From: Candidatus Eiseniibacteriota bacterium
GTDB lineage: Bacteria > Joyebacterota > Joyebacteria > Joyebacterales > Joyebacteraceae
DNA: 63,784 nt
Assembly (NCBI GenBank): GCA_030622115.1
Contig: JAUXGN010000014.1
Span: forward strand, 1 to 63,784
Direction: 5' to 3'
A program made the translations under genes and the position numbers. Positions 5,498 through 51,886 of this stretch are shown here, piece by piece (position 1 is the first letter of the stretch; every line of letters begins with the position of its first letter). Below the pieces are notes generated by a model. The model did no database searches, had not been told where the DNA came from, and saw only the letters and a list, made by a program, of their open reading frames with translations.

Positions 5498-5540
5498 GAA
5501 CCCGCCGGTCCTTCACCGGTATGAAGGCATCGGCGGGTTC
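5498..5540 (+). terminator. Bipartite hairpin, probable terminator of the secreted pair
   Basis: Outer arms GAACCCGCCG (5498-5507) and CGGCGGGTTC (5531-5540) pair over 10 bases; inside, CCTTCA (5510-5515) pairs with TGAAGG (5522-5527). The tail TACT is short of T, so efficiency is uncertain. An ATG at 5521 lies in the hairpin and is therefore an unlikely start for the next gene. Confidence 0.55.
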
Positions 5541-5577
5541 TACTGACCCCGATAGCGAACCACTGCACCGCATCCAG

Positions 5578-5605
5578 GCAGGAGCAACAAGGCAGGAGCA
5601 ACAAG
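5578..5605 (+). repeat. 14-base direct repeat upstream of the C25 gene
   Basis: Two copies of GGCAGGAGCAACAA in tandem, plus the beginning of a third, sit just before the ATG at 5611. They duplicate an AGGAG ribosome-site-like element, so the copy number could affect translation of the C25 protein. Confidence 0.55.
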
Positions 5606-5610
5606 GCAGA

Positions 5611-8600
5611 ATGATTCCTGAGAGTCGGAGTTGTGCGTGCGGCCGGGCGGTCGCGGTGCTTCTTCGCACACCGCTGGTCAGCGCACTGACGGCAACCCTG
5701 ATAGTTTCAGCAGCACTCGCAGGAGGAACGGCAGGATCGGAGACCCCGGAGCCAAGCTCATTCCCACTACGGCCTTCGGTCGCCCCCTTGCAGCACAATG
5801 ATAGTACTTCCAGCAAAACTACGCTAAAACTCACTCTCACTGAGAACCCAGAATCAGACCGCGTCATAACGCGTCAATCTCTGACTTCTCTCGCACCTGT
5901 TGGCACTGAGAGGATCCAGTCTGCAGTTCGTCTGCTCGCCCTCCCGGACTGCGATGGCGCCAACGTCGCCTCAGTCAGCCTGACTATCGACGCTGTCGCG
6001 ACCGTGCTGCCAAACGAGGATGCGACCCGCATCGCGAGCGTTCTTGAGATCGCCCGCATACGAAACCAGACGGTTGCCGTGGTCTCGATCGACCTCGCGG
6101 CAATCGAGACGCCCAAGCCGGGCGAGCGAGTAACCGCGGTCGAGATCGATGTCGTCCCAATCGCTCCTCGCGGGGCAGTGACTCGCAACGTTGGACCTTT
6201 CACCAACGTCTGCGAACGCACAATACTCAACTACACCCCCCCCTCGGATGCCGCTCCTCCGTGGCGCCCTATCCCGGAAGCGCGCGCAAGAGGCACCGTG
6301 ACGTTCTGCTCATCCATCGCAGAGTGCGAGCAGAGTGAGATAGATTTTCTCTTCCTCGTCGCCGACGAGTTCCAGTCGTCAGCGGCGATCCACGTACTTG
6401 CGATGCACAGAGCCGCGTACCTGGGGCTTAACGTCGGTATCGTCTCAATGTCGGGCATCGGCGACGTCAGCGCGGAAAGCATCCACGACTTCATCCAGAG
6501 CGTCTACGAGACCGAATCGGCCGCCCATTTTGGCGACGGCCATCTCGGCTTCGTGCTCCTCGTAGGCGACGCCTACGCCGACGACAATGAGACACTCATG
6601 ATCCCCGCCTACGATGGGTACGGTGGGCAGGAGGTCGCCTCAGATCACTACTATTCCTGTGTGAGCGGAGATGATGATTTCGAGGACTTGATGCTCGGTC
6701 GTCTCTCTGTGGGCAACACCGGGGAGCTTTTCGCAATAGTCAACAAGATCGGCAACTACATGCCGCTTTCCGGCGCGTCCGAGTGGCGCGACCGGACGAT
6801 GCTCATCGGCGGTCTTTTCTACAATGACAAGAGTGAGTACGTCGCGTTGTTCGATGAGTACGAGGAGATCCTCCCCTCAAATCACACGGTAGATCGCATC
6901 TACCGACACGACTTCGATTCCGATTTCAACTGTGCCATGGCGGTGGCTGACGCTTTCAACCACGGCTACCTGTTCCTGAACTTCGCCGGGGACGGCTGGA
7001 TCTCGGAGTGGTATCACACATTCAGAACGACCCACCTCTCTGCTCTCAGTAACGTCGACCGGCTCCCCATCGTTCTCTCGATGGCATGTCTCACCGGCTG
7101 GCTTGACAACATCACAGAGCCGGACATCCTCGGATCATACGATTGTCTGGCCGAGCAGCTCGTCAACCTACCGGACGCCGGGGCCATTGCGTGCCTGGCC
7201 GCGCCACGGTACAGCGATGGCGGATCGTTCCGCACTCTCACAGAGAAGATCTACGAAGCGGCCTTCAACGAGAACAGCCTCTTCCTCGGGGAGACCTCTG
7301 TGGTCGCGAAGCTGCTGCATCTCCAGTCCGGCGGAAGCGTGTCATACGTCAGGCATTTCAATCTGTTCGGAGACCCCTCGCTCATCTACAGCGGCGGCGA
7401 ATCACCCGATGACCTGACCGATCTGACGGTCAAGCCCTATCAAGCCACGTGGTTCCCTGAAAATCTGTCGGCGGGAGACGATCTTTCCGTCTCGATCGTG
7501 GTTACGAACCAGAGCGCGATCCCGGCATCATCAATCATGGTGCGGCTCACCGACGATTCGGCCACAGGTTCCAACATCTACGATGTAACGATTCCCTTCA
7601 TCGACAACTGGTCATCAGTTGAGGTTGAGATCGTCGTGCCGGGAGTCGCTGGAGGAACACACAGCATATCAGTTGAAGTGGATCCCGACGATGAAATCGT
7701 TGAAACAAACAATCAGAACAACTCCTTCACCGAAATCCTCTACGCCTATCCTGTCCTTCCTGGATTCCCTGCTGACGTCGACGCTCTTCTTCTTGGAGCT
7801 ACGATCGTGTCGACAGATCTCGGTGCTCCTTTGATAGCCGTTCTTGATGAACAGGGACGCGTATCGGGCATCGCGGCGGATGGAAGCACATCGTGGACAT
7901 CCAGCCCGGCTCTTGGCCCTCTCGACTTCGGGATCGAAGTCGCCCCCGCTGCTGCGGATCTGGATGGGGATGGTGTGGACGAGATCATCTCCACCCGCAG
8001 AATGGGACTCAAGTGCCTGAGCCCGGACGGCGAAGAATTGTGGAGCATCAACATAGATGAACCGATCGGCTCGCCGCTGCTCGCTGATGCCGATGCCGAT
8101 GCCGATCTCGATGTCGTGATTGCCATCAGTGGCTTATGGGGCGCGCCTTCATCTCTGGTCGCGTTCGACGAGAACGGTTTGACCATTTGGACACACGAGT
8201 TCCCGTCGGGTATCCTTGTCGAGTCTCAGCTCGCCGCAGGCGATATGGACATGGACGGCCGCGTCGATTTCGTATTCGTCTCATCGATCGGCGATCTCTC
8301 CGCTCTGACAATCATAGATAACGAACCATGTGACCTCTGGCAGCCGGTGCACATCGATGCCTCACTCCCCGCAGTGCTGGCATTGGGCGACACCGACAAC
8401 GATGGCCTGCTGGAGATCATCTGTGGCGGGTCGGAACTCTACTGCATCAATTCAGAGGATGGTTCTGTCGCCTGGAGCCTGCCGCTGGACGACGAAGTCG
8501 TCTCGCTCGCTCTTGCGGACACGGACGCTGACGGCGCCCCCGAGATACTCGCGGGCACGGCATCCGGATGCCTTCACCTGATAGATGCCGGTGTCACGTT

Positions 8601-10269
8601 GTGGTCGACGACTCTCAGTGATGCAATAAGCAGCTCTGCTGTCGTAGCCGATGTCAACGGCGACGGGGATCTGGAGATAGTTCTCGGCTCCGTGTCGGGC
8701 TACGTTCATGTGCTCGATCTGTCGGGCGATGAGATCCTTCCCTCGATCCCGATCCCCGATGGATGCAGCACTCCGATGGTCAAGGACCTGGATGGAGAAG
8801 GTTCTCTCGATGTCGTCGCGGCTTCACTGGGCGGAAGCATCTATGCCTTGTCGTTCGCGTCGGAGACGCGGACCGCGCCCGAGGCGCGGGATGCGGAAGC
8901 GGCGCCCGAGTGGAACGGTATCGGCGGCACGCCTGCACACGGCGGCATCTACGCCCAGCCCCTGAGCGGCGACATCACGTCCGATCTCCTTCTTACGGGA
9001 CGCTGTGTCCTGACCGGCGACGTCACGGTCACACCTGGATCCACGCTTGTGATCGCTCCCGGGACGACTATCGACATCCAGTCTGCGCTGCCGCCGACGG
9101 TCAGGATAGACGGAACTCTGACCGCCATCGGCACTGCTCTGGACGGGATCACCTTCTCCTCGTCTCAAAGCGGAGAGCCGGGCGACTGGGTAGGTCTCGT
9201 TTTTGTGCCTGCGACGAGCAGTTCACTCACGCACTGCACGATCAACGACGCCGACGTGGCTCTGGACGGTAATCACGCGACCCTCGTCATATCTGACTGT
9301 CGATTCGACGGAAACGGCTTCGGCGCCTATCTCGACACCTGCACGGTAGCCATCGTCCGCTCCAGCTTCTCCGGCTGTGATTCCCTGGGTGCGTACTTCA
9401 GTGGAGGAAGCGGCACGATCATCGATTGCTCATTTGACCAGAATCATCTCGCGGGTGCGGAGCTGAGGCTATCGGCCGACCACACATTCAGCGGATGCTC
9501 CTTCTCGGAGACTGCTTCCGGCAGCGGAGTCGGAGTCTCCAAGTTTGCGACCGCCTTCTTTGACTCGTGCAGCATGTCGAACAACACCGAAAACGGTGTC
9601 TCTGTCAGCAACGCATCTCCTGTGTTCACAGGATGCACGATCGCCGACAATGGTGTTGAGGGAGTGGCTTGCAGGAAGACCGCCTACCCTACGTTCACGC
9701 GAAACACCATTACCGGCAACCACATCGGCGTCAGGTCCGAGACGGGATCCCACCCGAATCTCGGTGACGACTTGTACCCTGACACCGGTTACAACACCAT
9801 CACCGACAACCAGATGGCAGCCGTTGCGAACTACGACGGAGCGAATAACCCAATCTACGCTCGGCGCAACTGGTGGGGCTCGGCTCCACCAAGCGGCAGG
9901 ATCTTCATCGGCTACGTGTTCTATGGACCCTTCCTCACAGCGCCACCCGACCAGAACCCGAGACTTGATGACGACGGGATGCTCCCCTCGGTCTTCGGGC
10001 TTCTGCAGAACTCTCCCAACCCCTTCAACCCCGTTACCACGCTCTCCTATGACGTTCCACCCATGGGTGGCGAGGTCAATATCACCATCTACAACACGCT
10101 TGGCAGGTGTGTGGCCACTCTCGTCTCCGGTCACCACGACGCCGGCACATACCTCATCACCTGGAACGGGCGCGACGACGCGGACCGGAAGCTTGCAAGC
10201 GGCCTCTACTTCGTTAAAATGGTAGCGCCGGGCTTCGCCTCGACCAGGAAGATGCTCCTCCTCAAATAG
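5611..10269 (+). CDS. C25 (gingipain-like) peptidase-family secreted protein with CARDB, FG-GAP, beta-helix and FlgD-like sorting modules
   Basis: 1552 residues. Order: signal peptide (1-45), C25 caspase-like domain (about 220-595), CARDB Ig-like domain (about 603-710), FG-GAP/PQQ-like propeller with D-x-D-x-D-G calcium loops (about 710-1080), right-handed beta-helix (about 1120-1435), and a FlgD-like C-terminal module with NSPNPFNPVTTLSYDVP and SGLYFVKM that in FCB bacteria directs export and cell-surface attachment. In the C25 domain the nucleophile block is kept (LPIVLSMAC, Cys493), but the usual N-Y-x-G-H-G carrying the catalytic His reads NFAGDG (Asp461). It may thus be inactive or use another His (His466 region, WYH). 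The ATG at 5611 starts the signal peptide; an upstream in-frame ATG at 5521 lies in a hairpin. It follows the secreted pair but is separated by a hairpin. Confidence 0.85.
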   Translation: MIPESRSCACGRAVAVLLRTPLVSALTATLIVSAALAGGTAGSETPEPSSFPLRPSVAPLQHNDSTSSKTTLKLTLTENPESDRVITRQSLTSLAPVGTERIQSAVRLLALPDCDGANVASVSLTIDAVATVLPNEDATRIASVLEIARIRNQTVAVVSIDLAAIETPKPGERVTAVEIDVVPIAPRGAVTRNVGPFTNVCERTILNYTPPSDAAPPWRPIPEARARGTVTFCSSIAECEQSEIDFLFLVADEFQSSAAIHVLAMHRAAYLGLNVGIVSMSGIGDVSAESIHDFIQSVYETESAAHFGDGHLGFVLLVGDAYADDNETLMIPAYDGYGGQEVASDHYYSCVSGDDDFEDLMLGRLSVGNTGELFAIVNKIGNYMPLSGASEWRDRTMLIGGLFYNDKSEYVALFDEYEEILPSNHTVDRIYRHDFDSDFNCAMAVADAFNHGYLFLNFAGDGWISEWYHTFRTTHLSALSNVDRLPIVLSMACLTGWLDNITEPDILGSYDCLAEQLVNLPDAGAIACLAAPRYSDGGSFRTLTEKIYEAAFNENSLFLGETSVVAKLLHLQSGGSVSYVRHFNLFGDPSLIYSGGESPDDLTDLTVKPYQATWFPENLSAGDDLSVSIVVTNQSAIPASSIMVRLTDDSATGSNIYDVTIPFIDNWSSVEVEIVVPGVAGGTHSISVEVDPDDEIVETNNQNNSFTEILYAYPVLPGFPADVDALLLGATIVSTDLGAPLIAVLDEQGRVSGIAADGSTSWTSSPALGPLDFGIEVAPAAADLDGDGVDEIISTRRMGLKCLSPDGEELWSINIDEPIGSPLLADADADADLDVVIAISGLWGAPSSLVAFDENGLTIWTHEFPSGILVESQLAAGDMDMDGRVDFVFVSSIGDLSALTIIDNEPCDLWQPVHIDASLPAVLALGDTDNDGLLEIICGGSELYCINSEDGSVAWSLPLDDEVVSLALADTDADGAPEILAGTASGCLHLIDAGVTLWSTTLSDAISSSAVVADVNGDGDLEIVLGSVSGYVHVLDLSGDEILPSIPIPDGCSTPMVKDLDGEGSLDVVAASLGGSIYALSFASETRTAPEARDAEAAPEWNGIGGTPAHGGIYAQPLSGDITSDLLLTGRCVLTGDVTVTPGSTLVIAPGTTIDIQSALPPTVRIDGTLTAIGTALDGITFSSSQSGEPGDWVGLVFVPATSSSLTHCTINDADVALDGNHATLVISDCRFDGNGFGAYLDTCTVAIVRSSFSGCDSLGAYFSGGSGTIIDCSFDQNHLAGAELRLSADHTFSGCSFSETASGSGVGVSKFATAFFDSCSMSNNTENGVSVSNASPVFTGCTIADNGVEGVACRKTAYPTFTRNTITGNHIGVRSETGSHPNLGDDLYPDTGYNTITDNQMAAVANYDGANNPIYARRNWWGSAPPSGRIFIGYVFYGPFLTAPPDQNPRLDDDGMLPSVFGLLQNSPNPFNPVTTLSYDVPPMGGEVNITIYNTLGRCVATLVSGHHDAGTYLITWNGRDDADRKLASGLYFVKMVAPGFASTRKMLLLK

Positions 10270-14328: not shown

Positions 14329-16050
14329 CTACTTCAGAAGGACCATTCTCCTGACATCGGTATGCTCACCTGCCTGGAGCCGGCAGAAGTAGACGCCCGA
14401 GGCCACGCTACTGCCGGCGGCGTCGGTCCCATCCCACGCAACTTCGTGATCCCCCGGCGCCAGTTCGCCGGCCCTGAGAATCGTCCTGACAACGCGGCCG
14501 GCGGCATCGTAGACAACGATGTCCACAGGTGTGGTTTGCCCAAGCCGGAACGCCACCATAGTCCTCGGGTTGAATGGGTTCGGGGAGATGCCAAGGATGC
14601 TGCCACCACGCAGCGGCACGTCGGAATCAACCCCGGTTGCGTCCGGGTCGTAGTCAGTGTTCTGCGGGTCGAAGTTCGTCCAGTTCCCCGCCCACTGGCT
14701 CTCCATGCCGCGCGACGGATCAAAGGCTCCGCGGTACGTCACCTGCTGAAAATGGTCAGCCACGTCCGGGTGCACCCAGTTGGCCGGCGTGGTGACAAGT
14801 TCCGATGTCGGCAGAGGAATGGGATTTGGATTGTTGAGGTCGCTCATGTCCGTGAGGCCGACTGAACCCGGCATGCGCGGCTGCGACTGGGTCGGATCAT
14901 TCCCGGACTCCGCGTCAAACCAAGCTGTCACCTCGGCCCAACGTCCCTCGTCATGAATGCTCGAGGAGCCGATCGGCATGGTGCTCGCCTGGACACTCGT
15001 GTAGTGCACATTCATCGTGTCGGTCGAAGCGAAGCCCTGTGTGCAAGCGTCGCGAACGCTGAAACCCCACGGAAAACCCATGATGACCGAGTTGTGGAGC
15101 TTATGTTTCGTGCAGCGACGCAGCACGGCGCTGTACTCAAAGGCGTGTCCCGGCGGGAGGTTGCCTACGAGGGCGTCGGTTCGCTCTGGCCCAACGATGG
15201 TGCAGTTGGCGAATGTCGTCGATGTGATCGGTGGAGTCAGTCCAGCGGGCTTGTAGCTGTCGGATTCGAAGCCGTTGCTCTGGCCTTCGGCATCCGACCA
15301 GTCGGGATCGCGCAGGCAGAAGCAGAACTGGTGCCTACCCGAATGACCGAAGTCGGTGTCGAACACGTCATCGAGACCCCCCAGCACACACAGGTAGTCG
15401 CTGTCGCAGTTGCCGCCGAACCACTCAAAGCTGTCGTCGTTTGAGTAGCTCACCTGGACGTGATGGATCTCAGTGTTGCGTCCGACGCCCCCCATCGTGA
15501 GCCCGTTGACCTCGTTGCCTTCCTCTATGCGATGGCCGGGGAACTCGATCCGACAGTAGTAAAACTCACCGGAGTCATCATCGGGATCGTTCCCACCGAA
15601 GTGTCCTTCTATGAGACCTCCCTCGATGACAGGGTTGACGCGGTTCACCGGAGCGTTGCCAAGAATGATAACGCCGCCCCAATCGCCCGGGTTCCGTTCG
15701 GCCGGCTCCTTCATGCTCGTGAAAACGATGGGCCGTTCCTCGCTGCCGGTGGCGTGGATCTCACCGCCCCGCGCAACGACGAGGGTCGCGGTCGTGTCGC
15801 CCATGACGACGGTACCTTCCGGAATCGTGAGGGTGTAGAGAGAATCAACGTAGTAGAACCCGGTCAAAATGTAGAGCGTGTCGGCGGACAGAGTGCGGTG
15901 CCAACTCTGATGATATGATTCCTCCGCGTGTTCCGGACCGGTTCCGGGACCGAGCACTACTGGGGGTTTCCAGCCTGCTAGAGCCTGCGCACCCAGCACA
16001 GTACTCAGGATCAGGAGCAGTACGATCCCTGTTCTGATGCACGACTTCAT
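14329..16050 (-). CDS. Secreted beta-helix-like protein with FlgD-like C-terminal sorting module
   Basis: 573 residues. A signal peptide (MKSCIRTGIVLLLILSTVLGAQA-LA) is followed by a parallel beta-helix-like body with an initial capping segment (YILTGFYYVDSLYTLTIPEGTVVMGD) and the block DSFEWFGGNCDSDYLCVLGGLDDVFDTDFGHSG that recurs in a secreted family common in Bacteroidota and related phyla. The last 90 residues are a FlgD-like Ig module with SPNPFNPRTMVAFRL and SGVYFCRL. Proteins of this type often sit next to TonB-dependent receptors, as here (the receptor ends 218 bases upstream), so a surface binding or substrate-presenting role is inferred. A GAGGAG site lies 7 bases before the ATG. 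The ligand is unknown. Confidence 0.78.
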   Translation of the reverse strand: MKSCIRTGIVLLLILSTVLGAQALAGWKPPVVLGPGTGPEHAEESYHQSWHRTLSADTLYILTGFYYVDSLYTLTIPEGTVVMGDTTATLVVARGGEIHATGSEERPIVFTSMKEPAERNPGDWGGVIILGNAPVNRVNPVIEGGLIEGHFGGNDPDDDSGEFYYCRIEFPGHRIEEGNEVNGLTMGGVGRNTEIHHVQVSYSNDDSFEWFGGNCDSDYLCVLGGLDDVFDTDFGHSGRHQFCFCLRDPDWSDAEGQSNGFESDSYKPAGLTPPITSTTFANCTIVGPERTDALVGNLPPGHAFEYSAVLRRCTKHKLHNSVIMGFPWGFSVRDACTQGFASTDTMNVHYTSVQASTMPIGSSSIHDEGRWAEVTAWFDAESGNDPTQSQPRMPGSVGLTDMSDLNNPNPIPLPTSELVTTPANWVHPDVADHFQQVTYRGAFDPSRGMESQWAGNWTNFDPQNTDYDPDATGVDSDVPLRGGSILGISPNPFNPRTMVAFRLGQTTPVDIVVYDAAGRVVRTILRAGELAPGDHEVAWDGTDAAGSSVASGVYFCRLQAGEHTDVRRMVLLK

Positions 16051-16268
16051 GGAAGCACTCCTCTCTATGGAACAGCAAGGTGTTCTAGCGACTGTGGTAC
16101 CGCGAACATTGAGACCTGCTAAAGCCTTCTACCAGTAGGCGCACCTCCTCCCGCACGCAGCCTTCTCCACGGTCTGAGCCTCCTGCCACTATCTCGGCAT
16201 CGCGGGCTATTTTACCAAGACTCCATGTCCCCCGTGTGGGAGCAGTGTCAGGAAATCGTGTGCGCCGC

Positions 16269-19055
16269 TCAGAGTCCGAAGCCGATTGAGAGGGAGTATG
16301 TCGCACCTCGCGATTCCAAGGTGTGGACGGCCCTCTCCGGACCCATCGTCTTCACGTCGTCCGATCCCATGAGGTTCTTCGCACATAGCTTGAGTTCCCA
16401 GCTGTCAAACAGCCTCTGCGTCACCACGAGATCCAGTACCTCGCGCGACTCCTGCCAGAGATCCCCGTCCCGCTCACCGGATACGGAGTAGAGGCGTCTT
16501 GCGATCTTGTTGTAGAGGACGGTTATGGACGTGCCGAGCCGGGGGTGCTCGTAAAGGAGCGCGACGTTCACAGTCCACGGCGATTGCCCCTGGAGCGGAC
16601 GGGTTCTGATCTCACGTCCGGTGTGCCAGTCGCCGTCATCGTCTTGCCAACGCCACTCGTAGAGATACTCGACCGATGAGTAGACCCGTGCGTAGTTGCC
16701 CGCAATCGTGAAATCCTCAAGGAACCCGCGGAGGAACCCGAGCCGCTTTCTCGCCTCGATCTCGAACCCGTAGTTATGGCCCCTCGGCGAGTTGAACCAC
16801 GTCCTGATGTACTTGTAGTCCGACGAAGGAATCATCTTGAGTTCGATCGCATCGTACAGGTCTTTGTAGAAGCAGCTGACCGCAAGCACCTCGTCGCCGC
16901 CCGGGAAGACCTCAACACGCACGTCATAGTTCTTGATGACCGCGCGCGTGAGATCAGGGTTGCCTTGGACGTTCGCGCCCTCATTGAAGTCGAAATACTT
17001 GACATCGGCCATTTCGCGAAGCTCTGGTCGATTGACCGAATGGAAGGCACTGAGACGCACGTTTGCCCGCTCGGTCAGCATGTATGTGAGGTTGATGGAG
17101 GGCAGCACGTCCGTCTTGTCGATGCGCGAGTTGACGGGCTCCTCGGAGCCTTCCATCTTCAGCGCCGCGACATCTTGTAGAGAGTGCTCGACGCGCGCGC
17201 CCCCGGAGAATCGGAGGCGATGCGGACCCAGAGAGAACGGATGGTCAAACATGATGTAGTACGCGTCGAGTCGATGCGTGGCATCGTACTCCCCCGTGTG
17301 GGCGTTCTTGACCCGTAGGGTCAGCTTCTTCACATCGTAGTTGTCGGCCACGAAGATCGTGTCGATTCCGCAGACCCGAATCCAGTAGTTGGGAGGTCGA
17401 ATGGTCCCTGTATCTGTGAAGAACGAATCGGTCCTGTATTCCCTGCCGCGATGTTCGACATACAGGCCTGCCTTCACCTTCGACCGGCCAAGGGGAAGCG
17501 TGAAGTCAGCCCTCGCCCCGCCCGAGCGCTGGTAGAGATCCGACCACGTGCGGCTGTTCTCGCTCAGACTGTGTGTTCCATCGGCGCGTAGTTGGAAGTC
17601 GGCCTGTTTGCGGTCGGGTTCGTTCGCCGTCGAGTCCGAAAGAAACAGCTTCCACTGAAGCTCCGGGCCGCAGCGCCGGCCAAGCTCGTGCCTGCCGCCG
17701 AGCTGCAGACCACAGCTGGAGCGCTCGTCCCATTCGATTGTGTAGGTCTTCCCTCCGGGGCCACTGTTCTCGTTTACGCTTCCCTCCGAGTAGCTTACCT
17801 GGTCGCGGGCGTCCCGCATGTAGAGGCCCCTCAGGGTGTACTGATGCCCCTCGCAGGGTGCGTACGCAAGGTTCAGGAGCGCGGACCACATGACCTTGTA
17901 TCGATCCCGCGTTCCCTCCTTGTGATACAGCTCGTAGCCCCCGGTGTCGTGAGGTGATTCGACGAACTCGACCCTCTCGTATGAACTGGCGTACTTGAAC
18001 CCGGCGACCAGTCCGAGCACATGACAGCCATCCTCAGCGCCGAAGTCGATGCGATCACCGTACGACAGATTGCACGAACCGTTGAGCGGCGCGGTCTCCG
18101 TCCGTGTTGACCACGTGTTGGGAAGTCTCTTCGCAAGTTCATTGTAGTTGTTGCCCCCGCTTGGCGCGTACGAGGGCAGTTTTCGGATGCCGTCGTCCGC
18201 GCCGCGCCAGTCGGTACTGCTCCCTTCCGATCTGAGGATGCCCCTCGTAGACGTGTTCTCGTCGTAGGCGGAGGAGAACGACGCCGAGAGCTGTCGGCCG
18301 TCCGGGATGTCGCATGTGTTCAGCTGCACGAGGCCACCGGCGAAGTCGCCTGGAAGATCCGGTGTAGCAGTCTTCACAATGACGACACTTGCGAGAAGCG
18401 ACGCAGGCAGGATGTCGAACGCGAAGCTCCGGCGATCGACATCCGTGTCGGCGCTGCTCGTTGCCACACCATCGAGCCAAGTTGTGCTGTACCGGTCGCT
18501 GGTTCCCCTGACGTACACGAATTTGTTATCCACGACCGAGAGTCCCGTCACTCGCTTGAGCACATCGCTGCTCGTGCCGTCTGGTGACTTGGAAATCCGC
18601 TCGGCGCTGATCGCGTCACCGATGGTGATTGCCTTCATCCGTTCCGTGATGAGCCCGATCTCCGTCGAGAGAACGCGGTCCGCAGTAACGACGAGATCGT
18701 CGATCGTGTAGTCGGCTGCGACCGTGTCCTGGCGCAGAAGTTCGACATTGAGCTTCTCGGATTCTCCCGCTTCGACTTGGACGTTCGGTACGACCTTCGT
18801 CTCGTAGCCGACGAACGAGAACCTTATGTCGTAGGCGCCCGGTGGGATCTCCTCGATGTGGTACTTGCCATCGAGATCGGTCGAAGCGCCGATTGTCGTA
18901 CCGAGAAGAAGCAGACTTGCGCCCGACAGTCTCTCTCCGGACTTCTCATCGCGAACGGCGCCGTGCAGCGAGGCGCTCTCGGCGAATGCGCCGGCAGGAA
19001 GGATCAACGCAACAACGAGGACCACGATCCTAACACCCTTCATGTAGTCGATCAC
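16269..19055 (-). CDS. TonB-dependent outer-membrane receptor
   Basis: 928 residues. Order: signal peptide (1-25, ending AGAFA), a carboxypeptidase-regulatory-like domain (about 28-110: LHGAVRDEKSGERLSGASLLLLGTT), a plug domain (about 120-230) with DVLKRVTGLSVVDNKFVYVRG, and a 22-strand barrel to the end. Such receptors import chelated metals, cofactors or glycans using energy passed on by TonB; the N-terminal extension is the SusC-like arrangement. No TonB box was recognised with certainty (candidate around TIDDLVVTAD). The GTG at 19055 is chosen because AAGGAG lies 6 bases upstream; the ATG four codons on is too far from that site. It diverges from the DUF3450-TonB operon, the likely energiser, and precedes the FlgD-tagged gene. 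Confidence 0.9.
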   Translation of the reverse strand: MIDYMKGVRIVVLVVALILPAGAFAESASLHGAVRDEKSGERLSGASLLLLGTTIGASTDLDGKYHIEEIPPGAYDIRFSFVGYETKVVPNVQVEAGESEKLNVELLRQDTVAADYTIDDLVVTADRVLSTEIGLITERMKAITIGDAISAERISKSPDGTSSDVLKRVTGLSVVDNKFVYVRGTSDRYSTTWLDGVATSSADTDVDRRSFAFDILPASLLASVVIVKTATPDLPGDFAGGLVQLNTCDIPDGRQLSASFSSAYDENTSTRGILRSEGSSTDWRGADDGIRKLPSYAPSGGNNYNELAKRLPNTWSTRTETAPLNGSCNLSYGDRIDFGAEDGCHVLGLVAGFKYASSYERVEFVESPHDTGGYELYHKEGTRDRYKVMWSALLNLAYAPCEGHQYTLRGLYMRDARDQVSYSEGSVNENSGPGGKTYTIEWDERSSCGLQLGGRHELGRRCGPELQWKLFLSDSTANEPDRKQADFQLRADGTHSLSENSRTWSDLYQRSGGARADFTLPLGRSKVKAGLYVEHRGREYRTDSFFTDTGTIRPPNYWIRVCGIDTIFVADNYDVKKLTLRVKNAHTGEYDATHRLDAYYIMFDHPFSLGPHRLRFSGGARVEHSLQDVAALKMEGSEEPVNSRIDKTDVLPSINLTYMLTERANVRLSAFHSVNRPELREMADVKYFDFNEGANVQGNPDLTRAVIKNYDVRVEVFPGGDEVLAVSCFYKDLYDAIELKMIPSSDYKYIRTWFNSPRGHNYGFEIEARKRLGFLRGFLEDFTIAGNYARVYSSVEYLYEWRWQDDDGDWHTGREIRTRPLQGQSPWTVNVALLYEHPRLGTSITVLYNKIARRLYSVSGERDGDLWQESREVLDLVVTQRLFDSWELKLCAKNLMGSDDVKTMGPERAVHTLESRGATYSLSIGFGL

Positions 19056-19370
19056 GTCGGCTCCTTATTGGTGGCGGTCATCTTCCAGGATGAAGATGGG
19101 TCGTCTGCGCAAGAGTGAGCGTGGATAGTCTAGTGCCGTCGTGTTCAGGAATTCCTAGCGCCGCGTAAGGAATTCATCTCGGGTGGCCGGCAAACCCTAA
19201 TCGAGAACCAGCACGGCTTTCACAGAACACTAACTTGAGTGCGCTATCCTTATAGCTGTGGTCTTGATCACTCCGGTTGAGACGAACCGCGACGCGACGG
19301 CAGGCGCGAGACACCCGCCGACCGCGAGTCCTTCCGGCGGCAGGCGCGGATCCAAGTAGAAGGAGGATGC
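19056..19370. other. Shared promoter region of TonB receptor and TonB operon
   Basis: 315 bases between the divergent receptor and energiser genes. It contains a pair of AGGAATTC direct repeats (19147 and 19168) and an AT-richer patch around 19230-19260 (TATCCTTATAG) that could be a plus-strand -10 region, although no well-spaced -35 was found. The DUF3450 gene has an AGAAGGAGG ribosome site at its end. Confidence 0.45.
19147..19175. promoter_or_regulatory. AGGAATTC direct-repeat pair, candidate operator
   Basis: AGGAATTC at 19147-19154 and again at 19168-19175, 21 bases apart, which is two helical turns and so the same DNA face. The first copy extends to the palindrome AGGAATTCCT. It lies about 92 bases before the receptor start, a fitting place for a regulator of both divergent units. 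No match to a Fur box was seen. Confidence 0.4.
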
Positions 19371-20126
19371 ATGAGCAGACTGGTAGGTATCGCGCTGCTC
19401 CTGGTCGTGGCGGCAAGCCAGGTACAGGCACAATCCGCTTCCGCCGACCTACGAGACACGGTGCAGGGAACAGTCGACATCCAGAAGCAGACACAGGAGG
19501 AACAGGATGCGTGGGCGACCGAGCAGGCGGAACTCGAGGCCCGGTACCGCGCGGCGAAGGCGAGTGTGACGTACCTGGCCGAGCACATCAGCGTTCGAGA
19601 GAGGGAAATTGTGGGACTTGAGGAGAGCACGGCCGAGCTCGAGCGGCGCATGCACGAAGCGAAACTCCTCCAGACGAGCCTTCAGGACACGCTCAATGTC
19701 ATCATGGCGCGGCTGGAGGGTTCCGTCGCGAGCGACCTCCCCTTTCTTCGGGATGAACGCGAGCACCGTCTCGCCTCGCTTGGCGAGGAGTTCGCACACC
19801 CCGAGGTCACGGGTGCTGAGAAGCTGCGTCGACTCCTCGAAGCGATGCAGGTCGAAATGGAGTACGGCAAGACCGTGGATGTGAACCAGGACGAGATCCT
19901 GCTTGACGGTGAGCCGATCTTTGTCGACGTGCTGCGCGTGGGCCGCCTCGCGCTCTTCTGGCGCACACCTGATGGTGCGAAGACCGGCACCTTCGATCGT
20001 GCGACGTGGACATGGGTAGAGCTTCCCGACAAGTACGGCCACACCATCGCCCGGGCGATCGAGATGGCCTCGCGGATACGCCCTGTGCAGCTCATCGCTC
20101 TCCCACTCGGGAGGATCCGACCATGA
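19371..20126 (+). CDS. DUF3450 family periplasmic protein of a TonB2-type system
   Basis: 251 residues. A signal peptide (MSRLVGIALLLVVAASQVQA-Q) is followed by a long coiled coil (about 25-110, rich in Glu, Gln and Arg) and a C-terminal globular part with DGEPIFVDVLRVGRLALFWRTPDG, the core of DUF3450. In Vibrio the family is encoded with ttpC-exbB2-exbD2-tonB2, and the same order follows here. Its precise job is unsettled; a periplasmic partner of the TtpC-like protein is inferred. An AAGGAGG site lies about 5 bases upstream. Its stop codon overlaps the next start (ATGA), implying translational coupling. Confidence 0.85.
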   Translation: MSRLVGIALLLVVAASQVQAQSASADLRDTVQGTVDIQKQTQEEQDAWATEQAELEARYRAAKASVTYLAEHISVREREIVGLEESTAELERRMHEAKLLQTSLQDTLNVIMARLEGSVASDLPFLRDEREHRLASLGEEFAHPEVTGAEKLRRLLEAMQVEMEYGKTVDVNQDEILLDGEPIFVDVLRVGRLALFWRTPDGAKTGTFDRATWTWVELPDKYGHTIARAIEMASRIRPVQLIALPLGRIRP

Positions 20127-21598
20127 AGAAACCTCTCGTGATCGTGTGCGCGATCATCACATTCGCATCCGTGAGTGTGGATGCACAAGATGTCCGGGAA
20201 GCGGCGCGAAGATCCGAGATCGACCGTGTGGCGGCGGTCGATCGCGCAAGGCTGATTGAAGAAGCCGTCCTTGCTGACCGCGCAACCCTGTTGCCCGAAG
20301 TTGAGAGGCTCGAAGCCGAGGAACGGCGGCTGGAGAACCGGCTTGGGGAACTCGGAACACGAGCTCTAGCGCTCGAGAAGCGACGGGAGAGACTTGCCGC
20401 TCGATGGGCGGGGGAAGAACTCCAGTACAAGGAGATCTCCGGCAACGTGCGTCTCGCGGCGCGAGATCTTTCGGCCTTGCTTGAGCAATCGCCCCTGACA
20501 TCGCTCCGACCGGAACGATTGGCGCCCCTACGGCAGATCCTCAGGAAGGGCTACTTCCCGGACATCGACGACATCTCAGACATGGCCGCGGCCCTTCTCA
20601 AAGAGATGGAACTCGGGGGACAGGTCGGCTTCGCGGAGGGAACCTTCGTCGGGCGAAACGGTGAAGAGCAGATCGGCGACATCATGACCCTCGGTACCTT
20701 CACCACTCTCTATCGCACGGGTGATGGCCGTGAGGTTGGCTTCCTTACGCACTCGCAGAGCGAACAGAAGCTGTTTGCCCTGTCGGCTCTTCCATCTCGG
20801 AAGATGCAGCGGGTGCTCAAGCGGTACATGAACGGAAGTAATGAGTCGATTCTCATCGACATCTCCGGCGGCGCGGCGCTCAGGCAGATTACGCAGGACA
20901 TGGGGTTGCGGGATCACATCCTTCTCGGTGGTCCGATCGTCTACCCGATCCTCGCGCTCGGCTTGGCGGCGCTCCTCATCATCGTGCACAAGTTCGCCTT
21001 CCTCAGAAGGGTACACGGGAACACCGACAGGATCATGGGAGAGGTGTCCTCGCTCGCATCGAGTGGCGACTGGGACGGCTGCGAGTCAATCGTCCGAAGG
21101 CACGCATCCAGGAAGATGCCTGTCATCGAGGTCATCGCGGATGGTCTCTCGGCGAGGGAAGAGGATCGAGCGACGCTCGAAAGCGTCATGCAGGAAGCCA
21201 TACTCCGCGAACTCCCGCGCGTGGAACGGGGTATCCCCGTCCTCGGCGTGTTCGGAGCCGTCGCGCCGCTCCTCGGACTTCTGGGAACGGTCACGGGCAT
21301 GATCGAAACCTTCCGCGTGATAACGCTCTACGGGACCGGCGACCCCCGCCTCATGTCGGGCGGGATCAGCGAAGCTCTCATCACGACGGAAATCGGCCTC
21401 GCTGTCGCGATCCCGATCATGCTTTTTCACACCTTCCTCTCCCGTCGTGCTGATGCCATCATTGGCGAGATGGAGGAAAAGGCGGTGCATCTGGCAAACA
21501 TTATTCTGAAGGGAAAAGGTCCAAGTGGCGTCGATCGGGTGGAACAGATCACTGATCGAGTGATACTGAGTGAAACACGCGAAAGGACGGATGGCTGA
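20123..21598 (+). CDS. TtpC-like MotA/TolQ/ExbB proton-channel family protein
   Basis: 491 residues: signal peptide (MKKPLVIVCAIITFASVSVDA), a periplasmic coiled coil (about 30-110), a DUF3450-like middle segment (VGFAEGTFVGRNGEEQ), one membrane segment near 270-295 (GGPIVYPILALGLAALLIIV), and a MotA/TolQ/ExbB domain at about 390-465 (GVFGAVAPLLGLLGTVTGM and GGISEALITTEIGLAVAIP). In Vibrio, TtpC is an extra inner-membrane component required by TonB2 besides ExbB2 and ExbD2, and it has this architecture. The ATG at 20123 overlaps the preceding stop and has GGGAGGA before it. It overlaps exbB by one base. Confidence 0.85.
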   Translation: MKKPLVIVCAIITFASVSVDAQDVREAARRSEIDRVAAVDRARLIEEAVLADRATLLPEVERLEAEERRLENRLGELGTRALALEKRRERLAARWAGEELQYKEISGNVRLAARDLSALLEQSPLTSLRPERLAPLRQILRKGYFPDIDDISDMAAALLKEMELGGQVGFAEGTFVGRNGEEQIGDIMTLGTFTTLYRTGDGREVGFLTHSQSEQKLFALSALPSRKMQRVLKRYMNGSNESILIDISGGAALRQITQDMGLRDHILLGGPIVYPILALGLAALLIIVHKFAFLRRVHGNTDRIMGEVSSLASSGDWDGCESIVRRHASRKMPVIEVIADGLSAREEDRATLESVMQEAILRELPRVERGIPVLGVFGAVAPLLGLLGTVTGMIETFRVITLYGTGDPRLMSGGISEALITTEIGLAVAIPIMLFHTFLSRRADAIIGEMEEKAVHLANIILKGKGPSGVDRVEQITDRVILSETRERTDG

Positions 21599-22314
21599 TG
21601 GAGGTGCTTCGCAGAACCATCGAGTACCTGCAGCAGGGCGGCTGGATCATGGTTCCGCTTGCGGCCGCGTCGCTTGTTCTCTGGACGCTCATATTGGAGC
21701 GCTTGAGCTTCCTCCGGGGGCTCAGGTGCGGCGACATCACCATCGATGAAGTGATCGCCCTGCTCCGACGCGGCGCCGTGTGCGTGGAAGGTGACGGACT
21801 CCGCGCCCGCCTCATCAGGAACTTCCTCGCCCGGCGATCGGGCTTCCCACAGCTGGACCTCGACATTCTTCGTCAGTGCGCGATGCGCGAACGGTCCGAA
21901 CTTGGCAGATCCCTCGCCGTAATCGGTATCCTCGTCTCGGTCGCGCCGCTCCTTGGACTCCTTGGAACCGTGCTCGGCATGATCGAGACGTTCCAGGTCA
22001 TCTCGCTGTTCGGAACAGGGAATGCCAACGCGATGGCCGGCGGGATCTCGGTCGCTCTCATCACGACGGAGGCGGGCCTCCTCGTAGCTGTCCCGGGTCT
22101 CCTGTTGAGCGGCGTGCTACTGCAGCGGTCCTCGCGACTTACGACACAGCTCGAGGAGGACGTGATGATTATCTCTCGCGTCGTACGGCGCTCGCCATCC
22201 ACGCCGACCGACCGGCGGCGTTCCCGGAACGCCTGCGTCGACGAGCGTGAGGAGGGGCTCCTTATCGGCGAGATCACTCCTGTCGGAGTCTACATAGAGA
22301 GTGAGGCCTCATGA
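21598..22314 (+). CDS. exbB: ExbB-type proton channel subunit
   Basis: 238 residues with three membrane segments: about 18-38 (GGWIMVPLAAASLVLWTLIL), 105-130 (SLAVIGILVSVAPLLGLLGT) and 155-185 (GISVALITTEAGLLVAVPGLLLSG). With ExbD it forms the proton-driven motor that energises TonB. The sequence LLGTVLGMIETFQVISLFGTG is the family core. The start codon shares its A with the TGA of the TtpC-like gene. A hydrophilic tail of about 35 residues follows the last segment. Confidence 0.9.
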   Translation: MEVLRRTIEYLQQGGWIMVPLAAASLVLWTLILERLSFLRGLRCGDITIDEVIALLRRGAVCVEGDGLRARLIRNFLARRSGFPQLDLDILRQCAMRERSELGRSLAVIGILVSVAPLLGLLGTVLGMIETFQVISLFGTGNANAMAGGISVALITTEAGLLVAVPGLLLSGVLLQRSSRLTTQLEEDVMIISRVVRRSPSTPTDRRRSRNACVDEREEGLLIGEITPVGVYIESEAS

Positions 22315-22730
22315 TAAGCGTGCGTGGAACGTTGCGCGGCAAGAACGACCGTGTCGACATCCCCCTCGGACCGCTGATCGACATGGTCTTCCTCCTTCTG
22401 ATCTTCTTCGCCGTCACAACGAGCTTCGTGAAGGAGTCCGGCATCGACGTACAGAAAGCCACCGCGTCGACGGCAGAGATCAAGGAGCACGCCGGCATCT
22501 TGATCGGGGTGACGGCGGATGGCGATGCCTACTTCGAAGGCAATCGGATCGACATACGAAGCGTCCGTGCTCACGTCGAGCGTGCTCTCGTGGAGGACCC
22601 CGAGAGCGGCGTCGTGATCGTCGCCGACAAACGGAGCGAAACAGGCGCCATCGTCACCGTCATGGATCAGTGTCGGCTGGCCGGCGCCAAGACCGTGAGC
22701 CTCGCAGCAAAGCGGGAGGAAGAATCCTGA
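22311..22730 (+). CDS. exbD: ExbD/TolR-type motor subunit
   Basis: 139 residues, one N-terminal membrane segment with the proton-carrying Asp24 (PLGPLIDMVFLLLIFF), then a periplasmic ExbD domain (IGVTADGDAYFEGNRIDI; VVIVADKRSETGAIVTVMDQCRLAGAKTVSLA). It partners ExbB. Both ends overlap neighbours as ATGA, so translation is coupled along the operon. Confidence 0.92.
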   Translation: MISVRGTLRGKNDRVDIPLGPLIDMVFLLLIFFAVTTSFVKESGIDVQKATASTAEIKEHAGILIGVTADGDAYFEGNRIDIRSVRAHVERALVEDPESGVVIVADKRSETGAIVTVMDQCRLAGAKTVSLAAKREEES

Positions 22731-23347
22731 TGCGCATTGGTCGTTTCCCCGTGTGGATCCTGCCAACGGCTCTCAGCATCAATCTCGTTCTGTTCGGATT
22801 GGCGGCGCTTCTGCTACGGGAGCGGAAGGTTCCCCAGGATATGACCAACCCGATTGCGGTGAACCTCGTGAGGCTCGAGATCCCCTCGCTCCCAGAGGAG
22901 GAGAGAACCAAGCAACCCGAGAGGCCGAAGCCCCAACAGAAGCTCGATTTCATGCCGGAAGTCCTCCGCCCTGACCTGAGCTCTGCGGGGCCGATGGATC
23001 TCGGGGTTGCGATCGACCTCGGGGGCGTGGGTGGCATCAGTGGCGCCCAAGAGTTCGTGTTCGAGGCGTATGAGCTCGACCAGCCACCCCAGCCAATCGT
23101 GCGCGTGCCGCCCCCTTATCCGTATGCGGCTCGCGAACGCGGTATCGAGGGAGCGGTCCAAGTAAGGATGCTGGTCACAACAGAGGGAACGGTCGGGGAC
23201 GTGCAGATCCTCGATGCTCGTCCCAGCGGTACGTTTGAGGATGCCGTGCGGCGAACCGTGCCGCAGTGGAAGTTCGCGCCTGGGAAGATCCGGGGAGAAG
23301 CAGTCACGGCTTGGATCGTGATGACAATCCACTTCAACCTGAGCTAG
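22730..23347 (+). CDS. tonB: Short TonB energy transducer (TonB2-like)
   Basis: 205 residues: cytoplasmic start, one membrane anchor (WILPTALSINLVLFGLAALLL), a brief Pro/Glu/Lys spacer (EEERTKQPERPKPQQK) and a C-terminal TonB domain (VRVPPPYPYAARERGIEGAV ... FEDAVRRTVPQWKFAPGKIRG). It contacts the TonB box of outer-membrane receptors. The spacer is much shorter than in E. coli TonB, similar to Vibrio TonB2, which fits the presence of the TtpC-like and DUF3450 proteins that may bridge the periplasm. Starts at the ATG overlapping the exbD stop. Confidence 0.9.
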   Translation: MRIGRFPVWILPTALSINLVLFGLAALLLRERKVPQDMTNPIAVNLVRLEIPSLPEEERTKQPERPKPQQKLDFMPEVLRPDLSSAGPMDLGVAIDLGGVGGISGAQEFVFEAYELDQPPQPIVRVPPPYPYAARERGIEGAVQVRMLVTTEGTVGDVQILDARPSGTFEDAVRRTVPQWKFAPGKIRGEAVTAWIVMTIHFNLS

Positions 23348-23349
23348 GC

Positions 23350-24579
23350 ATGAGAAACACGTCCCAGAACAGTATGGCCCGCGTTCAGCTCATTGTGTGG
23401 CTTGCGCTCGCCCTGTGCCTCCCCGCGGCGTTCCTGTGGGCCGCGGACGGCGGTGGCATCGAGCGGAGGATCGACGACGTGGCCGACGTCCCCGCCGAGG
23501 CGCGCCTCGTGCTCTTCGAGGCCCAGAAGGAACGCGAGCAAGGCAATACCGAGGCCGCTGTAGACATCATCTCGGAGTTTCTCCTCGGACGCCCCGATCA
23601 GGATCACTTCCTGGTGCGGTTCCACTTGGCCCTGAGCTGGGCCAGACGCGGCGATCTGGAGGAGGCTCTCGCAGCCTACCAGGCCTCCGTAGCGATGGAG
23701 CCTCTGTTTGCCCAGGGGTGGCTCAACCTGGGAGAGCTCGCGTACAACATGGGACAATTCGACCTCGCGGCGTCGGCCCTCGCAAAAGGGTACGAGGTAA
23801 GCGAATGGAAGGAACCCAGCGTGCTCTTCTTCGCTGCCGCGGCATTGGTTATGGATGGAAGATCTCTCGAGGCCGTCCCTATGCTGGAGAAGCTCATATC
23901 GAGTGCGCACGGCAAGTCTGTGATGGAGTGGCACCGTGCTCTCATCATGGCGTATCTCGATCTCGGAAACAACGAGAAGGGATGCGAGGCACTCAGTGCG
24001 ATGCTGTCGCAACACGGCGACGACCCCGAGGCATGGCGACTTGGATTCCGCTACTTCGCGAGCACAGGTGACTACGATCAAGCCGCGATCATGCTGACAA
24101 TTGCCGGCTACACACGCCCGCTCTCCCAAGAGGAGGAGATGACGCTGGGAGATCTCTTCCTGACCGTGGGGGTGCCGGCCCAGGCGAGCACTCACTATGC
24201 GAGTGCTCTCGCCGGCGGCGGCTCCGCGCAGGACTTCGAACGCCTCGCCTCTGCGTATCTCGCTTCGTACAACTTCGATGCCGCCCTCGCCGCCCTCGAC
24301 CACGCCCTTGAGCTGGACCCGACCTCGCGGCTCTGGTCGCTTCTTGGAGATCTGCACTTCATGAGAAAGGGCTACGATGAGTCCTACAAAGCCTACAGCA
24401 ACTGCGTCGAAGCGGACAGCACGGTCGCGAGGGCCCATCTCATGATGGGCTACTGCGCCATCCAGCTCGAGCGCACGGAATCCGCCGTGCGGGCTCTCGA
24501 GCGCGCCGCCCGATTCCCGGAGCAGAGCGGGAAGGCGAACCGGCTCCTCGCCACAGCCCGGTCACTTGCGCCGCAGTAG
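23350..24579 (+). CDS. TPR protein of the TonB2-type operon
   Basis: 409 residues. A signal peptide or anchor (about 1-36, ARVQLIVWLALALCLPAAFLWA) is followed by about nine TPR-like units (for example QGWLNLGELAYNMGQFDLAASALAKGYE and ARAHLMMGYCAIQLERTESAVRALERA). A TPR protein ends the TonB2 cluster in Vibrio too. It is probably a periplasmic scaffold of the energising complex. It begins two bases after the tonB stop; ATG codons at 23350 and 23374 are both possible starts. Confidence 0.85.
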   Translation: MRNTSQNSMARVQLIVWLALALCLPAAFLWAADGGGIERRIDDVADVPAEARLVLFEAQKEREQGNTEAAVDIISEFLLGRPDQDHFLVRFHLALSWARRGDLEEALAAYQASVAMEPLFAQGWLNLGELAYNMGQFDLAASALAKGYEVSEWKEPSVLFFAAAALVMDGRSLEAVPMLEKLISSAHGKSVMEWHRALIMAYLDLGNNEKGCEALSAMLSQHGDDPEAWRLGFRYFASTGDYDQAAIMLTIAGYTRPLSQEEEMTLGDLFLTVGVPAQASTHYASALAGGGSAQDFERLASAYLASYNFDAALAALDHALELDPTSRLWSLLGDLHFMRKGYDESYKAYSNCVEADSTVARAHLMMGYCAIQLERTESAVRALERAARFPEQSGKANRLLATARSLAPQ

Positions 24580-24758: not shown

Positions 24759-24835
24759 GGCGGTGTAGCTCAGTCGGTTAGAGCAGCGGAATCATAATCC
24801 GCGTGTCCGGGGTTCGAATCCCTGCACCGCTACCA
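24759..24835 (+). tRNA. tRNA with anticodon CAU (elongator Met, or Ile2 if lysidine-modified)
   Basis: 77 bases including an encoded CCA. Acceptor arms GGCGGTG and CACCGCT pair (the first pair is G-T), the D arm is GCTC/GAGC, the anticodon stem is GCGGA/TCCGC with loop ATCATAA (anticodon 24793-24795), and the T arm is CGGGG-TTCGAAT-CCCTG. It lacks the three G-C pairs at the base of the anticodon stem that mark the initiator. The neighbour tilS encodes the enzyme that turns CAU into an Ile anticodon, so an Ile2 identity is possible, though the overall sequence is close to common elongator tRNA-Met genes. Confidence 0.93.
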
Positions 24836-40668: not shown

Positions 40669-40946
40669 TGAACTCCTCCTCTTGGACGGAAGTCGTAACG
40701 CCGCCTCACACAACGTACACACATTGGCAGGAAGTAACTAGCACTCCCATGTCTCACGCCGCCTGAGCCCTCAACGTGGCGTGCATCCTGCATGAACCGC
40801 CTACTGCCAAGGGCTGAACCGGACAATCCCGGAGGACGCGGACGTGCGCTCAGCACCGGACCCTGACCCCGCGCTCACAATTATTTTCAGTGGCACGAGG
40901 CTTGCAACCCGAAGTCAGACACGGTTGTTCGATGGCGGAGGACCGA

Positions 40947-41756: not shown

Positions 41757-41765
41757 GAAGCCTCC

Positions 41766-42416: not shown

Positions 42417-42428
42417 AGCCGGCTCCTG

Positions 42429-42965: not shown

Positions 42966-42994
42966 TCTCTCTCCTCCTCGCAAGCCCCGGGGCC

Positions 42995-44299: not shown

Positions 44300-44331
44300 T
44301 GGATACGCCTGCCTTTCATCCGGTCGCGATC

Positions 44332-44415
44332 GTTCACCTTCAGTCCGGCGCTGGAGATTTCCCGCTCGATATTGTTCACCTTCCGTCCGGCGCTGATGAT
44401 TTACCAATCGAGCTA
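44332..44415. repeat. 42-base tandem repeat between tolA and tolB
   Basis: Two units, 44332-44373 and 44374-44415, begin with GTTCACCTTC(A/C)GTCCGGCGCTG and diverge towards their ends; a worn third copy may lie at 44308-44330. The second unit ends exactly with the tolA stop codon. The unit length is a multiple of three but the array is outside genes if tolB starts at 44299. Confidence 0.65.
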
Positions 44416-45120: not shown

Positions 45121-45121
45121 G

Positions 45122-45532: not shown

Positions 45533-45557
45533 GTCGCCCCCTTCACTACCGGACTCG

Positions 45558-46235: not shown

Positions 46236-46248
46236 CCGTGCCTCCTGT

Positions 46249-47700: not shown

Positions 47701-47859
47701 TGGTTCATCTCGCCTCAACCGATAGGGCGAACGTCTGCGTGAGTGAATCGGGATTACCGCCCGCGGCCGGAAATGCGCCGCAGCCGTGGCGGTCACCACG
47801 GGCAGTCTGTTTGGGCAGAAACGGTCGGAGACCGACCGGACACGGTAGCGTAGACACTA

Positions 47860-50963: not shown

Positions 50964-50993
50964 TCTATCCTCCCTCGCGGCCTTAGCCGGCTT

Positions 50994-51854: not shown

Positions 51855-51886
51855 CCTGCCTCCTGCGCCTGGGTGTGAGACTCTGA

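Follow-up and report, generated by a model that had tools for sequence, protein, structure and literature searches.

TonB systems serve the transport of iron, vitamin B12, nickel and sugars, and phosphate is usually thought to pass the outer membrane through passive porins. Here we examine an eight-gene locus in a 63,784-nucleotide stretch of DNA (the window), which is an entire contig (C24, JAUXGN010000014.1) of a 2.63 Mb, 98-contig genome of a Candidatus Eisenbacteria bacterium. The locus consists of a six-gene TonB motor operon and, divergent from it, the genes for a TonB-dependent receptor and a secreted beta-helix protein. We argue that it probably serves to take up a phosphorus source across the outer membrane and is induced when phosphate runs short.

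The closest described systems come from Vibrio vulnificus and Caulobacter. The V. vulnificus tonB2 operon has the gene order ttpB2-ttpC2-exbB2-exbD2-tonB2-ttpD2, is iron-regulated, and encodes parts required for siderophore uptake; a further system, TonB3, consists of the same six genes with a receptor gene at the start of the operon and is described as of unknown function (PMC6957404). The title of a paper cited there places TonB3 under the control of Lrp and CRP. Caulobacter starved of phosphate makes ElpS (CC0170), a surface lipoprotein encoded beside the receptor CC0171 and a type II secretion system (T2SS), with homologues reported in Shewanella and Bacteroides (PMC2996285, 2010). A 2024 study lists various TonB-dependent receptors among the PhoB-dependent genes of Caulobacter (PMC11208175).

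The window locus can be compared with each of these. Its six plus-strand genes have the TonB2 content and order (ttpB-ttpC-exbB-exbD-tonB-ttpD), which makes them a Ttp-type (TonB2/TonB3-like) energiser. TonB3 is the better comparison, because it too pairs these six genes with a receptor; the receptor gene adjoins the operon in both, but it is divergent here and leads the operon in TonB3, a likeness drawn from the published description only, whose account of TonB3 mentions no beta-helix partner (PMC6957404). Unlike TonB2, the window has a TtpC of a separate clade, and neither such a receptor nor such a beta-helix protein occurs in Vibrio-type stretches (0 of 6): in six records from Vibrio, Photobacterium, Salinivibrio and Aeromonas the six genes stand alone in the stretches fetched (for Salinivibrio with only 0.9 kb upstream). 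As in ElpS-CC0171, a secreted protein is encoded beside a TonB-dependent receptor, and relatives found with the window's protein in Sphingomonas and Indioceanicola show the elpS-type order with receptor and T2SS alongside. This likeness is one of gene order, and the tie to phosphate starvation, known for ElpS, would be shared. ElpS differs in being a lipoprotein with a T2SS alongside, whereas the window protein carries a type IX secretion system (T9SS) tag and lies next to a Ttp-type motor. From gene order and the reported Shewanella and Bacteroides homologues, we infer that the beta-helix family would correspond to the ElpS family.

Each of the parts (the motor, its receptor-linked form and the pairing of ElpS with a receptor) has thus been described before. 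An earlier note on this DNA, made from the letters alone, had proposed a self-contained uptake system dedicated to one receptor, with a surface component undescribed in Vibrio. TonB3 already joins a receptor to the six genes (PMC6957404), and the surface partner is not new to such a receptor, given ElpS/CC0171, described in 2010 (PMC2996285), and the adjacency of the pair in most of the loci surveyed below. Our literature search, which covered few subscription journals, found no description uniting these parts in one locus across distant groups and no paper joining a Ttp operon with phosphate.

Phosphate genes near the beta-helix gene

To place the locus among other genomes we used a sample of 386, of which 20 belong to the phylum-level group of the window (all of one family) and 366 to other families. 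A profile of the beta-helix protein matched in 43 of the 386 and DUF3450, the domain of TtpB, in 31; outside the group the counts are 34 and 22 of 366. In 11 of the 34 outside genomes the beta-helix gene has a PhoB model match (E <=1e-42) no more than 6 kb away, where copy number and genome size lead us to expect 0.42; for a distance of 12 kb the count is 16 (0.80 expected). In 13 of these 16 genomes the neighbouring match is the best-scoring one of the whole genome. A PstS domain occurs within 6 kb in 3 of the 34 (about 0.18 expected, assuming a mean of 1.4 copies).

Individual loci show the association. In one group genome (G007), a run of same-strand genes (phosphate-selective porin, pstS, pstC-like permease, phoU) stops roughly 0.3 kb short of the convergent beta-helix gene, on its 3' side. 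Plasmid pBGP9 of Alteromonas macleodii carries, on a single strand, phoB, phoR, pstS (a PstS-domain gene), an oxygenase gene, the beta-helix gene, the receptor gene and the six motor genes. A second kind of motor stands beside the pair (G191, L236), in L236 in the order exbB-exbD-exbD-tonB-PstS-domain-TPR-receptor-beta-helix; this cluster resembles the window in its pair, its TonB motor and its TPR protein, and differs from it in having two ExbD and neither DUF3450 nor TtpC. Exb genes near the pair were also seen in L226 and L233. Separately, in genus g4 of the group a second, shorter PhoB-like receiver gene precedes phoB (L261:1221-2402, L264, L265).

We also scanned neighbours with NCBIfam models, covering 209 of 248 neighbour open reading frames (ORFs) in two alignments (106 and 103); the other 39 (Ttp genes and overlapping or short ORFs) were excluded by hand. 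We give these tallies little weight: they concern the 25 commonest families, with overlapping two-component models, and the second alignment included 14 pho/pst genes of the group (2 phoR and 2 phoB among them), which inflates the tally (9 members match phoR).

Predicted Pho-box sites

A second line of evidence comes from the promoters. Eight gammaproteobacterial records (seven Pseudoalteromonas and one Alteromonas) hold the six motor genes, the beta-helix protein and the receptor together; they make up 8 of the 13 records of these two genera with a DUF3450 match, and their beta-helix gene is annotated 'hypothetical protein'. The combination therefore exists in Gammaproteobacteria too. We scanned these joined loci with the E. 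coli-type Pho-box consensus, which we presume to apply, and for each gene took the highest-scoring co-directional site lying no more than 250 bases from its start, ranked among about 40,000-54,000 positions. Before the beta-helix gene the ranks are 4, 3, 1, 3, 3, 1, 1 and 3, so that all eight fall within 1-4, and before ttpB they are 3, 4, 13, 2, 1, 45, 2 and 1 (six of eight within 1-4). Before the receptor gene, which lies downstream of the beta-helix gene, they run from 31 to 941. For three receptor-less operons the ranks are 59, 359 and 202, the gene start being approximate for two, and the receptor-less loci L279-L281 went unscored in this ranking.

The same consensus fails to mark the window, where its best site, at 19217, scores 13.0, less than the mean maximum of shuffled sequence (13.6). 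For the group we enumerated all 1024 5-mers as 11-bp direct repeats in the sequences upstream of phoB, pstS and porin genes (23 regions from 11 loci, not independent). This enumeration replaced a matrix test that was circular, its sites near pst genes having been chosen with a motif from the divergent promoters. The commonest repeat is CTAAC, in 14 of the 23 regions at one mismatch or fewer in ten. It recurs in four of the nine divergent promoters of the group (L048, L049 and L050 of genus g4, L051 of genus g6) and in 0 of 2000 random 315-nt pieces of the window. In the Krumholzibacteriota locus L082, which did not contribute to the matrix, the three highest-scoring sites all fall within the two promoters. 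The window's genus has only a degenerate repeat, in the window TTCAC-N6-CTAACTTG at 19219-19237, at the same place before ttpB; it shows no copy at that stringency because one half-site has two mismatches. Taken alone, this Pho-like repeat is weak evidence. Across the genome of the window the pattern at two mismatches or fewer is rare and not enriched, since it has 7 matches (one of them before pstS on contig C51) and the reversed control has 42. Taking the loci together, the predicted sites make it likely that PhoB regulates both divergent transcripts.

The receptor and the beta-helix protein

What the locus might import depends in part on its two outer proteins. The plug, barrel and CarboxypepD_reg domains of the receptor each score above their Pfam cut-offs. 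The closest model for the whole protein is TIGR01782 (TonB-Xanth-Caul), at 229.4 bits and under its cut-off of 310. The label 'SusC-like' in the earlier note has to be dropped: TIGR04056 gives 44.6 bits against a cut-off of 368, by which we reject SusC/RagA identity, and with no SusD domain found by Pfam among the eight proteins we also reject the SusC/SusD class of glycan uptake systems. Siderophore and haem receptor models lie far under their cut-offs (24.3 of 223.5 and 34.6 of 316.9 bits), and a PDB sequence search with the receptor profile returned only the RagA N-terminal domain and two scaffoldin fragments. The stretch TIDDLVVTADR precedes the plug, and we take it to be TonB-box-like.

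The tag of the 573-residue protein matches FlgD_ig at 43 bits (cut-off 27) and TIGR04183 at 29.2 bits (cut-off 23); Por_Secre_tail, the Pfam counterpart of the latter, reaches 20 bits, under its cut-off of 27. The T9SS translocon protein SprA matches in 19 of the 20 group genomes, in 17 of them above the cut-off and in the window's genome among these, so that the sorting domain of a T9SS cargo at the C-terminus and a SprA translocon in the genome are both present. By eye, its N-terminus has no lipobox cysteine; the Sphingomonas member of the family has a lipobox (LSAC). The earlier note had called it a beta-helix protein. Pfam gives no such assignment, and a PDB sequence search with the beta-helix profile gave no match up to E 1, but an AlphaFold2 model built with 41 aligned sequences does have the fold, a right-handed parallel beta-helix followed by the Ig-like C-terminal tag (mean pLDDT 83, pTM 0.76). 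VIA-align scores this model at Z 21.3 against a phage tailspike (279 residues, root-mean-square deviation (rmsd) 3.6) and Z 18.4 against AlgG (252 residues, rmsd 3.0); in Foldseek with the whole model, matches to the C-terminal tag mainly occupy the top ranks. A common fold alone says nothing on the function of the modelled protein.

Several side observations concern this protein type. The FlgD-type tag is common in the genome (68 scored tag matches among ORFs), and a 1582-residue protein at 5521-10269 of the window carries the same tag along with a C25 (gingipain-like) peptidase domain and FG-GAP and beta-helix repeats. A second beta-helix gene, 64% identical, lies on a short contig of G003 (L047, C352:3200-4627) and is perhaps contamination. 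Genus g4 encodes, between receptor and beta-helix gene, a small secreted protein in which dockerin-like repeats were read by eye (L048:9773-10663, L260:8143-8796); such a gene cannot fit in the window, because the corresponding gap is only 218 bases.

These properties invite a different explanation, which we consider unlikely: that the locus imports a glycan or polymer fragment, that the beta-helix protein binds polysaccharide at the surface or acts as a lyase, and that pho genes are its neighbours only because some polymers are phosphorylated. Carbohydrate transporters do occur among TIGR01782-type receptors. Tailspikes, alginate epimerase/lyases and pectate lyases all have the predicted fold (Z 16-21), and the tonB2 of T. 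turnerae acts in cellulose use (PMC10734418). Yet we find no catalytic Pfam domain in the window's beta-helix protein or in six relatives and no glycan enzyme among the 25 commonest families of the 209 neighbour proteins, and glycan import does not predict Pho boxes before the genes.

Conservation in the group and spread of the two modules

Within the group sample, DUF3450 scores over its cut-off in 9 of 20 genomes, the full-length beta-helix protein is present in the same 9, and both are missing in the other 11. These genomes are not independent, because they are related and some are incomplete (G004, G014, G015 and G019, without the set, and G003, with it, are only 57-80% complete). All eight genes keep their order and orientation in seven of the nine, namely the window's genome and six others; in G003 the contig ends within tonB with the remainder in order, and in G011 the beta-helix gene and the operon are on different contigs. 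Wherever a contig spans the locus (8 of 9), the receptor gene lies between the beta-helix gene and the operon. The survey of relatives that the earlier note had suggested hence finds beta-helix protein, receptor and operon travelling together, and not receptor and operon separated in most relatives.

The picture outside the group is different. We scanned GTDB species genomes with a beta-helix profile stripped of the tag and kept the best 80 of 231 loci, mostly from Bacteroidota. Of these 80 loci, 67 have a receptor of this type no more than 2.5 kb from the beta-helix gene, 65 of them on the same strand; of the other 13, five start less than 400 bases from a contig end, and in the remainder no such receptor is seen. 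ttpB appears in only 7 of these 80 loci, six from the group and one from Krumholzibacteriota. In the sample of 386 genomes, both parts occur in 5 outside genomes and are neighbours in 4 (G146, G282, G299 and G301, the first two of one genus), that is, in 4 of the 34 bearing the beta-helix protein. The pair and the motor are separate modules, joined in some lineages, because outside the group they are mostly apart; the idea of a self-contained unit is supported within the group.

The motor itself is not exceptional outside the Gammaproteobacteria, contrary to what the earlier note had suggested, given its 22 outside genomes. We fetched 19 loci from 17 of these, and 18 show ExbB/ExbD/TonB-type genes; the last, L210, is truncated by a contig end and shows just ttpB and ttpC. 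Of the two Ttp operons in G301, one is accompanied by the pair and the other, within the fetched stretch, is not.

A tree of TtpC, a check that the earlier note had also proposed, puts the window away from the Vibrio rows. The tree has 36 rows, 7 of 43 loci having been dropped for a matched stretch of less than 200 residues, and is midpoint-rooted with several long branches. Eisenbacteria, the window included, and Krumholzibacteriota form one set (support 99/100), and 14 named gammaproteobacterial rows with four further rows form another (100/100), within which the eight joined gammaproteobacterial rows and G301 are a clade (100/99). We therefore reject the window operon as an orthologue of Vibrio TonB2 by TtpC kinship. 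Joined loci occupy the Eisenbacteria/Krumholzibacteriota set, the Gammaproteobacteria and two further lineages, and the label 'joined' needs 4 changes on the tree, at least 3 of them forced by well-supported branches; gain and loss are indistinguishable.

The tree bears on whether the locus is an iron system, for siderophores or haem, as could be suggested by its six-gene order, which it shares with V. vulnificus TonB2, a system whose parts siderophore uptake requires (PMC6957404). The window's TtpC falls outside the clade holding the vibrio operons, the siderophore and haem receptor models score far under their cut-offs, and elsewhere the pair is flanked by pho genes; on the tree and the pho neighbourhood we reject iron as the main explanation and regard it as very improbable. 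Least credible is that the motor serves export or surface assembly of the beta-helix protein through secretion machinery, with the receptor as a sensor: the pair does lie beside T2SS genes in Sphingomonas and Indioceanicola, and the window protein has a T9SS tag in a genome with SprA, but surface display cannot everywhere need a Ttp motor, because 73 of the best 80 beta-helix loci show no ttpB (some stretches being short), and ElpS reaches the Caulobacter surface without the T2SS (PMC2996285).

Gene content of the window locus

The layout in the earlier note, a six-gene operon in the Vibrio TonB2 order with genes overlapping or nearly touching, opposite a receptor and an FlgD-tagged secreted protein, was borne out: all eight genes were confirmed at 14329-24579, two on the minus and six on the plus strand (Table 1). 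Adjacent genes from ttpB to tonB share 4, 1, 4 and 1 bases, and ttpD begins 2 bases beyond tonB. The family scans took the starts 20120, 22727 and 23344, which lie 3-6 bases upstream of the ATG codons.

Table 1. Features of the locus, with positions in the window
Feature	Position	Strand	Details
Beta-helix secreted protein	14329..16050	minus	573 aa; signal-peptide-like N-terminal helix without lipobox; counterpart of ElpS (CC0170) by gene order
C-terminal FlgD_ig / T9SS type A sorting domain	14341..14589	minus	residues 488-570
TonB-dependent receptor	16269..19055	minus	928 aa; N-terminal CarboxypepD_reg, plug, barrel
Divergent promoter region of receptor and operon	19056..19370		partly conserved in 7 relatives
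Conserved element facing the receptor	19142..19175	minus	half-sites 11 bp apart on the minus strand, read by eye
Pho-box-like degenerate 11-bp direct repeat facing ttpB	19219..19237	plus	TTCAC-N6-CTAAC-TTG
ttpB (DUF3450)	19371..20126	plus	251 aa; 218 bits
ttpC (MotA/TolQ/ExbB domain)	20123..21598	plus	marginal DUF3450-like N-terminal part
exbB	21598..22314	plus	family match
exbD	22311..22730	plus	family match
tonB, short form (TonB_C)	22730..23347	plus	205 aa
ttpD, TPR protein	23350..24579	plus	409 aa

The N-terminal part of TtpC (20123-20760) scores 32.8 bits against DUF3450, just over the cut-off of 32.6, and 21.9-45.1 bits in nine genomes. This weak match may reflect kinship between TtpB and the periplasmic portion of TtpC, or a coiled-coil composition common to both.

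The genome as a whole has 7 TonB_C, 7 plug and 4 MotA/ExbB matches, with a second ExbB-ExbD-TonB set on contig C8. The other receptors need not rely on the Ttp operon because of that set and the 7 TonB_C matches, so the earlier note's proviso that several receptors might lack any other TonB does not apply. Another MotA/TolQ/ExbB gene, at 45612-45998 of the window, is possibly the TolQ of a Tol-Pal set. Beyond ttpD, a tRNA gene with anticodon CAT (24759-24835) precedes a tilS-like ORF. TilS modifies tRNA-Ile(CAT), so the gene may be for that tRNA and not for tRNA-Met.

Discussion

How well does uptake of a phosphorus source account for this locus? A number of observations weigh against it. No PhoB match lies within 12 kb in 18 of the 34 outside genomes, 31 of them have no PstS match nearby, and the nearby PhoB matches all score under the TIGR02154 cut-off (best 260.8 against 296.2). 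The locus is contiguous with pst genes in only one group genome (G007), and in the window's genus no pst or pho genes stand beside it in the stretches seen, those of the window's own genome being on contig C51. At one mismatch or fewer in ten, five of the nine divergent promoters, the window's genus included, have no CTAAC repeat, and CTAAC-N6-CTAACTTG at three mismatches or fewer is not enriched in the window (7 matches, 4.8 expected). For the gammaproteobacterial ranks, the use of a presumed consensus counts on the same side, as does the near-identity of L213, L274 and L275. Caulobacter went on producing ElpS after cc0171 had been deleted; poor medium failed to induce cc0171, and a shift to such medium brought no detected change in cell phosphate (PMC2996285). 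Finally, V. vulnificus TonB3 is described as induced in serum and in glycerol minimal medium with low casamino acids, and not by phosphate (PMC6957404).

With these points counted, we still find a phosphate-regulated uptake system the probable explanation. Its ligand may be phosphate, a phosphoester or a phosphorylated polymer; we hold only tentatively the narrower proposal of TonB-dependent transport of phosphate itself, or of mineral or organic phosphate captured by the surface beta-helix protein. Under phosphate starvation PhoB would activate both divergent transcripts from the predicted sites. The beta-helix protein would be exported via Sec and, as its tag suggests, the type IX system, and would capture or prepare the ligand at the cell surface. 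The receptor, as its family suggests, would import the presented ligand across the outer membrane, powered by what its linkage and joint presence mark as a dedicated Ttp motor. At the inner membrane the Pst system, encoded elsewhere in the genome, would then take over the product.

If this is true, bacteria spend energy on pulling phosphorus across the outer membrane, and the prediction is open to test in culturable Alteromonas and Pseudoalteromonas. Receptor-linked Ttp motors such as TonB3 would gain a role, and phosphorus would be a major class of TonB substrate.

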